From: a virus
Length of the DNA stretch: 45,893 nt
IMG/VR virus record: IMGVR_UViG_3300035193_000053
Location: 1-45,893 of that record
Direction: 5' to 3' (one strand)
In this document: piece by piece, positions 25,074-36,090 of the stretch
How positions within the stretch are numbered: position 1 is the stretch's first letter
How the letters are laid out: each line of letters starts with the position of its first letter
Translations under genes and position numbers: made by a program
Notes under the pieces: model-generated
Seen by the model: the letters and a program-made list of their open reading frames with translations, nothing else
Database searches by the model: none
What the model was told of the DNA's origin: nothing

Positions 25074-25097
25074 TATACGATATAGCGACAAATAAAT
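25074..25097 (-). promoter_or_regulatory. Leftward promoter candidate for late genes
   Basis: Read on the - strand, the block ends in GCTATATCGTATA and shares TATATCGTATA exactly with the rightward promoter at 26457-26480. The CGTATA -10 is clear. At 16-17 bases upstream the -35 is only GTAAAA/TAAAAT, weaker than in the other copies. It lies about 77 bases before the first late gene. Confidence 0.5.
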
Positions 25098-25331
25098 TTT
25101 ACACAAAATGAAAAAAGACAAAGGCTATCCTTTTTAAGGGGTATATTTGAAAATGATAAGAAATATGGGAGGTCATTCTCCCCCGTCGCGAGGCCCCCGT
25201 GGGGGATGCCGACAATTATTAGAGGTTTTGTCGACAATCGAGAGAAAAAGACAAGGATCGTCCTGTTCGCAGGCTGTTCGGAATACAAGCAAAAAAGTTT
25301 TTTATTTTTTCTTATTGTTTTTCTTTTTCTT
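25098..25331. other. Non-coding divergent control region
   Basis: No gene is supported here. It holds short hairpins, GGGAG/CTCCC (25167-25182) and CCCC-CGTG-GGGG (25194-25205), a palindrome TTGTCGACAA (25228-25237), and a T-rich run (25291-25330). It lies between the leftward and rightward promoters, so it may bind regulators of both arms. Confidence 0.5.
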
Positions 25332-25360
25332 ACGAACATTTTTTCTTGAACGTTCGTATA
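25332..25360 (+). promoter_or_regulatory. Rightward ECF-like promoter P2
   Basis: ACGAAC (25332-25337), a 17-base spacer and CGTATA (25355-25360), about 100 bases before the gene at 25464. The arms TACGAAC (25331-25337) and GTTCGTA (25352-25358) are inverted, and GAACGTTC (25348-25355) is a palindrome, so a regulator could bind over it. Confidence 0.55.
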
Positions 25361-25463
25361 CATGGTAGAAGGCTATTTTACAAGTGAATAAAGAATCGTT
25401 TCCTTTTTCGTATGTTGTAAAGAGAACAAGAACAAAAGAAAAAACTTTTTGAAAGGTAGAATC

Positions 25464-25994
25464 ATGGAAACTTTGAACACGAACACAAAGAACGAAAACA
25501 AGGAAACAAAGCTGACACAGGAACAGGTAGTGGAAAGGATCAAAGCCGCAAGGTCTTTTGCCCTTGTCTTTGATGAAGACATTCCCTTGACGGCGACGGA
25601 GTTTTCGATATCCGACGCGACGTGCAGGAAACTCGGCTTCGACGCTTTGAAGGCGGATGAACTTCGACCTGCTTATCACAAGGAAAAAGACGGTGTTCGT
25701 CAAAATGGTCTTTTCCTTGTAAACAACCATTGCCCTAAGCCTGAAACGCTTGAACAGGCAGAAAGGGTTTACGCTGTTCTTGCGAAAGATGCCAACGTTC
25801 TTGAGAAAGTTCAGGCGGATATTGCCAGGCTTTTTCAAAACAAGGCCAGGGTCCTTTTGTCAGCTCCAGTCGAAAGTGCCTCGCAACAGCGTCGGGCCGT
25901 TAAACTCTCGAAAGCCGAGACGTTGAAAGCAGCGTTTGCGGCGGGAGAGCTTACGGCGGAAGAACTTGTGGAAAAGATGACAAGCTTGTTGTAG
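25464..25994 (+). CDS. Monocistronic early protein of unknown function
   Basis: The start is ATG 25464 with AAAGG eight bases upstream; an in-frame TTG at 25449 lacks a ribosome site. The 176-residue protein begins with a polar, Asn/Lys/Glu-rich tail (residues 1-20). A mixed alpha/beta centre follows, with FALVFDEDIPLTATEFSISD and a long helix (KPETLEQAERVYAVLAKDAN). It ends in a Lys/Ala-rich helical tail (KLSKAETLKAAFAAGELTAE) like an assembly or protein-binding motif. It has its own promoter and a strong terminator, so it is expressed alone and perhaps very highly. I do not recognise a family. Confidence 0.7.
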   Translation: METLNTNTKNENKETKLTQEQVVERIKAARSFALVFDEDIPLTATEFSISDATCRKLGFDALKADELRPAYHKEKDGVRQNGLFLVNNHCPKPETLEQAERVYAVLAKDANVLEKVQADIARLFQNKARVLLSAPVESASQQRRAVKLSKAETLKAAFAAGELTAEELVEKMTSLL

Positions 25995-26016
25995 TTTGTT
26001 GTTTGTTTCTTGACAC

Positions 26017-26055
26017 AAAAAGGCCCTGTTTCGTTACGGCGAGCAGGGCCTTTTT
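26017..26055. terminator. Strong bidirectional rho-independent terminator
   Basis: AAAAAGGCCCTG (26017-26028) pairs perfectly with CAGGGCCTTTTT (26044-26055) across a 15-base loop. It ends the single-gene unit at 25464-25994 and insulates it from the origin region that follows. Confidence 0.9.
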
Positions 26056-26085
26056 CCTTGTTCTTTCCTCCCCCTTGTTATCCTG

Positions 26086-26347
26086 TGTAACCTACGACTA
26101 CACTATCGGTTTCAGATAGCCTCGATTTCCAAAAGGGGAAAAAGACCTTTTTTGTCTTCTTTTGTGAGGATGCAAAAATTTTCGCTCATGTCAATATTCT
26201 GGATATTTTTTATATATTTTTATTATATATATATAATATATAGTTATATACAAAAAGAACATCTTTACAATCATCAATAAACAAGACAATTTTTCTCTTT
26301 TTCCCTTTTTTGCCTATCTGAAACCACTTTCGTAGTCTTAGGTTACA
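26086..26347. other. Candidate replication origin (inverted arms around AT-rich core)
   Basis: No gene is supported between 25995 and 26574. Left arm 26086-26121 and right arm 26312-26347 are inverted copies, 29 of 36 bases identical. Each has two conserved blocks, TGTAACCTAnGACTAC and GGTTTCAGATAG. Between them lies an extremely AT-rich stretch (about 26195-26252) with a perfect 18-bp palindrome TATTATATATATATAATA at 26221-26238. Paired protein-binding arms flanking an easily melted core is the layout of an initiator-dependent origin. It sits between the divergent arms and near the early promoters. Function is inferred. Confidence 0.55.
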
Positions 26348-26452
26348 TATCGTTTGTTGTCTGTGTGCCTGTCCCTTTTCTCTCATGTCCCTTGTCAAGA
26401 TGTCCCTTTTCTCGACACCCGAAAAATTTTTTACTATTTTTTCTTTTTTTAT

Positions 26453-26480
26453 TCGAACTTTTTGTTCTTTATATCGTATA
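26453..26480 (+). promoter_or_regulatory. Rightward ECF-like promoter P3
   Basis: TCGAAC (26453-26458), a 16-base spacer and CGTATA (26475-26480), about 95 bases before the gene at 26575. It shares ACTTTTTG followed eight bases later by ATCGTATA with the promoter at 34734-34761, in identical register. Confidence 0.6.
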
Positions 26481-26574
26481 GGTTATGGGTACTTGTTTTT
26501 TTTCGTGTTTCTCGTTTTTCATTTATCACGTATCAACATGCATACAGACAAAAGAAAGAGAAAGGAGTGCTAAA

Positions 26575-34664: not shown

Positions 34665-34667
34665 AAG

Positions 34668-34686
34668 CTGTTAACAGTTCTAACAG
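34668..34686 (+). repeat. Operator-like palindrome, copy F
   Basis: CTGTTAACAGTTCTAACAG, four bases after the stop of the zinc-ribbon gene. It precedes the promoter at 34734-34761, so it could act from upstream on that promoter. Confidence 0.65.
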
Positions 34687-34733
34687 CGTTGATATCCCGA
34701 CAAAAAATATCTTGTTATTTTCTAAAAATTTAT

Positions 34734-34761
34734 TGAAACTTTTTGCCCCTAAAATCGTATA
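34734..34761 (+). promoter_or_regulatory. Rightward ECF-like promoter P4
   Basis: TGAAAC (34734-34739), a 16-base spacer and CGTATA (34756-34761), about 60 bases before the gene at 34822. It is the closest match to the ECF consensus and shares a 24-base block with the promoter at 26453-26480. Confidence 0.65.
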
Positions 34762-34821
34762 TACTGGTGAACTTTTCAAAAAGTAAAAATTTTACAAACT
34801 AAGAAACAGGAGTGAAAAAAC

Positions 34822-35241
34822 ATGAAAGTTGAAACACAAGAGGTAAAAAGCAAGGGTGCAGTTGTTGCGACAGTCGATATCGAACAGTTTGATTCAATCG
34901 CGGAGGCTGTTGAATTCCTCGGCTCACAAGAAGATGGTACATGTGACAATGCAGCTGGAGAAACAAAGTTCCTGGCCCTTGCCAATCGTCAGTACAAGCA
35001 GGACCTTTGCAATGCGGCAAGGGCCGAAGCTCGGCCTGACACAGCAAGCAAGAGCAAGCGGCGTGAGTATGCTAAGTCCTATATCAATCACCTCAACGCA
35101 CAGGGTGACACAGAGCTTCTGGACAAGCTCAAAGAGGTTGCAATCACCGGCAGTTTCTCAGAACTCGAGAACTTCCTGGAATCTGTTTTCGAGGAATTTC
35201 AACAGGATATTCACGACACCGTGATCAACGCTGGCGAATAA
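34822..35241 (+). CDS. Single-gene early protein of unknown function
   Basis: The 139-residue product has ATG 34822 with AGGAG-like sequence upstream. It is helical and Ala/Glu-rich (FLALANRQYKQDLCNAARAE then KRREYAKSYINHLNAQGDT), with an acidic C-terminal helix (LENFLESVFEEFQQDIHD). It has its own ECF-like promoter and a strong terminator hairpin after it, giving a single-gene unit like that at 25464. No family was recognised; it may be needed in high amount. Confidence 0.6.
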   Translation: MKVETQEVKSKGAVVATVDIEQFDSIAEAVEFLGSQEDGTCDNAAGETKFLALANRQYKQDLCNAARAEARPDTASKSKRREYAKSYINHLNAQGDTELLDKLKEVAITGSFSELENFLESVFEEFQQDIHDTVINAGE

Positions 35242-35272
35242 CGAATCTCTCTTCTTTTTAAAAGAGTTCATA

Positions 35273-35304
35273 GGGTGGAGACCTCGAGCATCCTGTCTCC
35301 ACCC
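35273..35304 (+). terminator. Terminator after the gene at 34822
   Basis: GGGTGGAGAC (35273-35282) pairs perfectly with GTCTCCACCC (35295-35304) over a 12-base loop and is followed by TTGCTCTTGTTTTCC. A second, weaker AT-rich stem lies just upstream (about 35249-35266). Confidence 0.75.
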
Positions 35305-35346
35305 TTGCTCTTGTTTTCCGTCACCTCAAGAAGAAGGGAGTTTTAC

Positions 35347-35625
35347 ATGCACTTTCCACACGAAAAAAGAAGAACGAGCGAACTTATTTGTCCATCCAGC
35401 TCATGTTGGAGTGCCCTCACAAAAGAAGAGAAGATCAACCACGTTCTTATTCTCCACGATATTCGAGAGAATGAATTCTCAAAGAGCAAAAAGAACAAAG
35501 GCAGGAAATCCACGAAAAAGAGCATAGAGGCTCCTGTTGCAAGAAAGAAGAGAAAAATTCTTCAGGGCTTTGATCCTGAGATTCAAGCCATGTTGGAAAA
35601 AGCCCTGGAAAATGGAAAGGATTGA
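35347..35625 (+). CDS. Basic hypothetical protein
   Basis: ATG 35347 follows GGGAG. The 92-residue product is strongly basic in the middle (KSKKNKGRKSTKKSIEAPVA, RKKRKILQG) and starts MHFPHEKRRTSELICPSSSC. It probably binds nucleic acid. It is immediately upstream of the sigma factor gene. Confidence 0.5.
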   Translation: MHFPHEKRRTSELICPSSSCWSALTKEEKINHVLILHDIRENEFSKSKKNKGRKSTKKSIEAPVARKKRKILQGFDPEIQAMLEKALENGKD

Positions 35626-35631
35626 TCATGC

Positions 35632-36090
35632 ATGAAGCTACCATACGAGGACGTTTGTCCAATCATTCGACGCTTGTCCCACATCTTTGCAAGAAGGTTT
35701 CCGAGGTATGAGGCGGATGAGCTCTTCAACATTGCCTTTGTTGGAAAGGTTCAAAATGTTGATGACATTAAGCATGTAAGCACAGCTGTTAGACAAACGT
35801 TGATAGATTTTCTAAGAAAGGAAAGAAGGTTAAGAGAGCATCTTATAGAAAATGGAGAAAGCCCTGACGAGTGCGTTAATTCAGATGAGCAAAAAATAAT
35901 ACTTGATGAATTGATGAGTCGTGCAGATCTCTCTCCAAAAGAAGGTGAGATTATTTACCTTCTCTTTTATCGTAACATGAAACAACAGGAAATTGCCAAA
36001 AAGCTAAACGTTTCATGTTCGACAGTCAGCAGAACCATAAGAATCACAATGGAAAAGCTTAGGAGAGTTTACGATGATCAAAACAAGTGA
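35632..36090 (+). CDS. ECF-like sigma factor
   Basis: The 152-residue product has AAAGGA upstream. It has sigma region 2 (FPRYEADELFNIAFVGKVQN through LIDFLRKERRLREHL, residues about 24-70) and region 4 (LSPKEGEIIYLLFYRNMKQQ followed by an HTH: EIAKKLNVSCSTVSRTIRIT, residues about 102-142). The regions typical of primary sigmas are absent, as in ECF factors. It would direct RNA polymerase to phage promoters. The GAAC-N16/17-CGTATA sites found in this window are candidate targets. Confidence 0.8.
   Translation: MKLPYEDVCPIIRRLSHIFARRFPRYEADELFNIAFVGKVQNVDDIKHVSTAVRQTLIDFLRKERRLREHLIENGESPDECVNSDEQKIILDELMSRADLSPKEGEIIYLLFYRNMKQQEIAKKLNVSCSTVSRTIRITMEKLRRVYDDQNK

Follow-up and report, generated by a model that had tools for sequence, protein, structure and literature searches.

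We analysed a complete virus record of 45,893 bases (IMG/VR IMGVR_UViG_3300035193_000053), here called the window, which derives from an uncultured bacterial virus. A MazG-like reading frame runs from one end of the record into the other (45664-45893 joined to 1-237), and the record therefore probably represents an entire, circularly permuted genome. Its genes form two divergent arms. Minus-strand structural genes run from ~25.0 kb down to 2.1 kb and include the terminase large subunit and the major capsid protein; plus-strand early and replication genes run from 25.4 kb to the end of the record and continue round to 2.06 kb, encoding a helicase, a Sak4-like protein, a ParB-methyltransferase, a family A DNA polymerase and a primase. 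The DNA polymerase is ~30% identical to its closest named relatives and 35-45% identical to those of the nearest IMG/VR contigs. The subjects of this study are a small sigma factor of the extracytoplasmic function (ECF) type encoded in the plus-strand arm and a family of intergenic sites with a CGTATA -10 element.

A first-pass annotation of the sequence had described a 152-residue sigma with regions 2 and 4 only, and both profile and ECF fold matches bear this out. Residues 17-145 match the superfamily model TIGR02937 (E=2.8e-19; 69.3 bits against a cut-off of 42.9), and PHROG sigma families are matched as well. Of the two halves, region 2 is less certain, its Pfam model giving only E=0.025. 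Within the 25 best models listed, the superfamily TIGR02937 alone passed its cut-off; no named ECF subfamily or equivalog did. Because a single-sequence AlphaFold model was poor (predicted local distance difference test, pLDDT, 56), the structure was modelled from four sequences (pLDDT 79; predicted template modelling score, pTM, 0.44). This model matches region 4 of many sigma factors and can be aligned across almost its full length to SigL, SigH and sigma-E, although the domains are oriented differently. We conclude that the protein is a genuine two-domain, ECF-like sigma, consisting only of regions 2 and 4 and a short linker. No close relative was found in the phages, viral contigs or GTDB genomes searched; three GTDB matches were rejected as generic region-4 similarity over about 60-80 residues.

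CGTATA occurs 12 times in the genome. Four copies are intergenic, exactly those listed at first pass: 25074 on the minus strand (25079 below), 25332 (25334 below), 26453 and 34734. They were found to open the main transcription units; the first-pass annotation had placed them before single-gene units, the first early operon and the late operon. In ~2.3 kb of intergenic DNA, four copies compare with 0.42 in dinucleotide shuffles (P=0.0025). The intergenic set was curated by hand because the automatic open reading frame caller hid two of the three sites of the window that match the SigW consensus described below. As a bare hexamer, CGTATA ranks only 22 among hexamers for intergenic enrichment, so that the -10 element alone fails correction for multiple testing. 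AAC stands 16 or 17 bases upstream in three of the four sites, against 4.3% of positions by chance (binomial P=3e-4), and the summed match of the four sites to TGAAAC has P=1.6e-4. The four sites are real and exceed chance. The GAAC-type -35 elements proposed for three of them at 16 or 17 bases hold only in part: AAC is present in three sites, but the GAAC of 25334 is an arm of an inverted repeat and 25079 has no GAAC.

The strongest part of the family is the pair formed by 26453 and 34734. All intergenic regions were compared pairwise without gaps, with shuffles of the whole region set as the control; such comparison is recommended for phage-sigma promoters, which are few but well conserved (PMC4331800). 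The two elements aligned with 30.9 bits, whereas the best shuffled alignments averaged 20.8 +/- 1.6 and the largest reached 25.9 (60 whole-set shuffles). The exact register in which 26457 and 34738 had been reported to agree was recovered and extends to 34 bases, TTTATTnnAACTTTTTGnnnnTnnnATCGTATA. Both elements have an AAC triad, a T-tract, a 16-base spacer and CGTATA. Their conservation forms two blocks around an unconserved spacer of promoter length, and ribosome-binding sites follow 50-95 bases downstream. The pair is secure; in a score derived from it, the two members reach, by construction, 27.4 and 26.8. The motif ACTTTTTG is found only five times in the genome (25444, 26457, 29174, 34738 and, on the minus strand, 34784), always in intergenic DNA of the early arm; the three copies without a -10 element read ACTTTTTGAAA.

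The resemblance to ECF promoters noted at first pass is upheld by independent criteria. In ECF -35 elements, as described in PMC6056542, a T-tract follows an AAC triad, and the consensus of Bacillus subtilis SigW is TGAAAC-N16/17-CGTA (PMC2375139). AAC-TTTTT occurs at 26455 and 34736 and AAC-ATTTTTT at 25334. When AAC plus T-tract, a spacer of 16 or 17 bases and a CGT-containing -10 are taken together, 26455 and 34736 agree fully, 25334 agrees with a 17-base spacer, and 25079 lacks the AAC. The 34734 site matches the B. subtilis SigW sequence TGAAAC-N16-CGTA exactly, and 26453 and 25079 match TGAAAC plus CGTATA at 10 of 12 positions. Intergenic sites agreeing at 10/12 or better with TGAAAC-16/17-CGTATA number three (34756, 26475 and 25079, minus) against 0.26 expected, a count reached in 0 of 300 shuffles; these figures flatter the hypothesis somewhat, because the consensus was picked after the sites had been seen. 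SigW is, however, a cellular envelope-stress sigma, and the phage protein is shorter and passes the generic superfamily cut-off only. The consensuses of sigma-70, sigma-E, sigma-28, sigma-X and sigma-H showed no intergenic enrichment at their stricter thresholds.

The other two sites score lower. Against 14.2 for the best clearly coding background, the pair-derived score is 14.9 for 25079 and 14.6 for 25334, the latter being no better than background. The late site 25079 is nevertheless plausible, since it has the right location, the right -10 element and TAAAAT at 16 bases. At 25334, AAC and a T-tract are present at 17 bases, but GAAC and CGTA form the arms of one inverted repeat, TACGAAC-N14-GTTCGTA, so the site is weak and equally readable as an operator. 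The five CGACA(A) repeats within 65 bases at the late promoter are the densest such cluster in the genome and could possibly be an operator array for late-gene control.

Table 1. Features of the sigma and promoter region; positions are those of the window.
Feature	Position	Strand	Remarks
Two-domain (region 2 + region 4) sigma factor, 152 residues	35632..36090	plus	TIGR02937, PHROG families, fold matches
Predicted ECF-type promoter, TTGAAAC-T-tract-N16-ATCGTATA	34728..34761	plus	60 bases upstream of gene 34822-35241; exact TGAAAC-N16-CGTA
Predicted ECF-type promoter, TTTATTCGAACTTTTTG-N8-ATCGTATA	26447..26480	plus	~95 bases upstream of first early gene (ATG 26575)
Probable late-operon promoter	25074..25101	minus	CGTATA -10; partial -35, TAAAAT, at N16
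Weak ECF-like site, GAACATTTTTT...CGTATA (N17)	25334..25360	plus	Upstream of single gene 25463-25994
Late/structural arm (terminase, major capsid, virion proteins)	2113..25007	minus	Downstream of 25079 site
CGACA(A) repeat cluster, n=5	25026..25091		Straddles late promoter -10
Single gene between divergent arms	25463..25994	plus	25334 site upstream, intrinsic terminator downstream
Intrinsic terminator, GGCCCTG..CAGGGCC-TTTTT	26017..26055	plus	Ends 25463 unit; z=-5.8
Possible host sigma-70 early promoter, TTTATA-17-TATAAT	26209..26237	plus	Not above chance
Second possible host sigma-70 early promoter, TCGACA-17-TATTTT	26412..26440	plus	Not above chance
Gene directly downstream of 34734 promoter	34822..35241	plus	139 residues; function not assigned
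Strong hairpin	35272..35305	plus	Between first gene of 34734 unit and sigma gene; z=-3.8
PD-(D/E)XK (RecB/Cas4-like) nuclease gene	36074..36997	plus	Directly downstream of sigma

The sigma gene is neighboured by the nuclease gene and a gene for a small protein, and its position is conserved: in each of three related phages (G039, G003 and G012), the homologous PD-(D/E)XK nuclease gene is immediately preceded by one for a very diverged sigma-like protein. The G039 protein has 153 residues and is 25% identical (BLASTP E=1e-6), and those of G003 and G012 are 18-20% identical, their equivalence being judged from position and weak similarity. The promoter family was not found in these three phages, whose strong intergenic pairs are other elements; G003, for example, has two near-identical intergenic copies of AATCATCTTTTAGTCCTTAAGYTATCAT, at 10615-10642 and within 21094-21171. 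The equivalent early region of G039 carries a perfect TTGACA-17-TATAAT. Across 42 related records, GAAC-N16-CGTATA with one mismatch showed no excess over a reversed control. SigW-type intergenic sites were almost absent from ~34 related contigs, which were partial and had genes called by the automatic caller mentioned above; we count this in favour of the regulon proposed below. A scan of the collection for AACTTTTTG-N8-ATCGTATA gave 12 matches, about chance level by estimate; 11 of the 12 contigs have no detectable gene in common with the window and the remaining one has a weak terminase match, and these matches were rejected.

A phage ECF-like sigma that drives its own promoters would resemble a strategy already known from a few phages, such as Salmonella phage 7-11, with SaPh711_gp47, and Escherichia phage phiEco32, with gp36. 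Phage 7-11 likewise has divergent arms, late-arm promoters and a sigma that includes region 4, and its promoters are bipartite, with 16 bases between the elements (PMC8948821), but they read GTAAtg-(16)-aCTA and gp47 has 185 residues instead of 152. In phiEco32, gp36 serves middle and late promoters, and its element tAATGTAtA agrees with tATCGTATA of the window at 7/9 positions. In contrast to the present case, however, phiEco32 promoters consist of a single element, gp36 has no recognisable region 4 (PMC8948821), and there is no meaningful sequence match; the single element tAATGTAtA has no exact match in the window genome, where near matches, like TAATGTATA-like sites, are mostly coding. Because gp47, with region 4, uses GTAAtg-(16)-aCTA, whereas gp36, without it, uses a single element (PMC8948821), a bipartite promoter fits the present sigma, which has region 4. 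Homology to gp36 and gp47 was not demonstrable by direct comparison: only short region-4 alignments were obtained, with probabilities of 1 and 6%, respectively, the profile comparison with gp47 covering ~40 region-4 residues.

In both 7-11 and phiEco32 the phage sigma reads late-arm promoters, in phiEco32 also within the middle of the early cluster, and transcription of early genes begins at sigma-70 promoters of the host (PMC8948821, PMC4331800). The layout of the window resembles that of these phages, whose phage-sigma promoters lie at the late arm and in the later part of the early cluster (PMC4331800): one ECF-type site stands before the late arm and another before the unit that precedes the sigma gene. 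It differs in that an ECF-type site also heads the early arm. SPO1 gp28/gp34 and T4 gp55, cited in PMC9429907, are likewise phage middle or late sigmas, which turn the host polymerase towards later phage genes, but they belong to other sigma subfamilies and use other promoters.

Together, these sequence features suggest that the phage sigma probably redirects host RNA polymerase to phage genes. The reading that we prefer, and to which we give an even chance, is a self-amplifying regulon started by weak host transcription. The small sigma would join host core RNA polymerase and direct it to promoters whose -35 element is an AAC triad with a T-tract and whose -10 element, 16 bases away, is CGTATA. 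Such promoters would open the region of replication and sigma genes (34734), the early arm (26453) and, on the minus strand, the arm of late structural genes (25079). The first sigma molecules would come from low-level transcription of the early arm by a host sigma; the phage sigma would then boost the early and sigma-containing units and turn on the late arm. If this is the case, a phage lineage far from phiEco32 would combine a minimal two-domain sigma, at a fixed spot in the replication cluster, with SigW-like promoters. It would allow the divergence of sigma and promoter specificity to be tested within a single phage lineage, and would supply a small orthogonal sigma for which candidate targets are known.

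The sigma, its conserved position and the promoter family come directly from the computation; recognition of these promoters by the sigma, the succession of events and the kick-start by a host sigma are what we infer. Several points weigh against such a regulon. No direct link joins the sigma to the sites. The earliest operon, whose head carries one member of the best-supported pair, lies upstream of the sigma gene. The phage sigma alone could not start that operon, because it would not yet have been made, unless host transcription begins the cycle. Dependence on a phage sigma would be most expected of the late site, yet its -35 element is only partial, and the genome holds no more than three or four sites. 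The hairpin at 35272-35305, possibly an attenuator or terminator, separates the 34734 promoter from the sigma gene, and positive feedback would therefore need read-through. G039 has an equivalent sigma gene together with a perfect sigma-70 early promoter and lacks the CGTATA family, and among the relatives there is no close one in which co-variation of sigma and promoters could be seen. Sequence-based phage promoter predictions can also fail: the motif TGATGT predicted for 7-11 (PMC4331800) was superseded by another after transcription starts had been mapped (PMC8948821). Compared with that prediction, the present case has a longer element, a bipartite anatomy and a match to an external consensus, while still being drawn from sequence only.

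The main rival to this reading is that the sites are promoters for a SigW-type ECF sigma of the host, which, perhaps activated by infection, reads the early arm, and that the phage sigma acts on other, unrecognised promoters. The exact agreement of 34734 with the SigW consensus (PMC2375139) would be accounted for, as would the presence in the pair of the first early operon, which is read before any phage protein exists, and the lack of enrichment of sigma-70 promoters. It would be unusual, however, for a stress sigma to serve first transcription; a SigW-type sigma in the host is an assumption, and a phage with both an ECF-like sigma and ECF-like promoters is more simply explained as a matched pair. 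We therefore regard this explanation as possible but unlikely. A bolder reading, in which nearly the whole programme, including the first early operon, depends on ECF-type promoters without any usable sigma-70 promoter and is started by an infection-triggered host envelope-stress sigma or by sigma carried in the virion, appears improbable.

Alternatively, 26453 and 34734 could be early promoters of a host primary sigma with preferences other than those of E. coli, the phage sigma serving the late arm only. Both strong sites precede plus-strand early-arm genes, the late site has in common with them just the -10 and a weak -35, and G039 has a primary-sigma promoter at the equivalent place. But CGTATA with AAC and a T-tract is unlike known primary-sigma promoters, and in G039, which may have another host, a perfect TTGACA-17-TATAAT serves as the early promoter; the explanation is distinctly improbable. 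The elements could also be regulator-binding repeats, or operators, with AT-rich control DNA and common ACTTTTTG motifs mimicking promoters. The five ACTTTTTG copies, all intergenic in the early arm and three without a -10, agree with this, as does the inverted repeat at 25334. We hold this to be the least likely of the three alternatives. Against it stands the conservation of the pair in two blocks around an unconserved spacer of promoter length, in an orientation that agrees with transcription and at a distance of 50-95 bases from the ribosome-binding sites that follow.

Other elements were seen in the intergenic DNA. Upstream of the early promoter lies a 34-base inverted repeat (26086-26119 / 26314-26347; 82% complementary), whose arms are separated by 194 bases that include very AT-rich DNA; it is possibly an origin or a regulatory element. 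Strong intergenic hairpins also occur within the continuous gene arms, at 16995-17060 (minus), 39554-39587 and 45276-45300, some with T-rich tails, which suggests terminators or attenuators that need read-through. The palindrome CTGTTAACAnTnnTAACAG is present in six copies (252-270, 15200-15218, 23457-23475, 24966-24984, 30706-30724 and 34668-34686), giving 12 matches on both strands against 0.41 expected. In both arms, most copies are found at the start of a gene or close to it, some adjoining a ribosome-binding site; they resemble the operators, or the RNA hairpins, of a phage regulator. A palindrome family of another sequence, ATATTCATTAAATGAATACGAGC, is dispersed near gene starts in a related phage (L138:4150-4173, L138:13797-13816 and near G039:20135, in L139).

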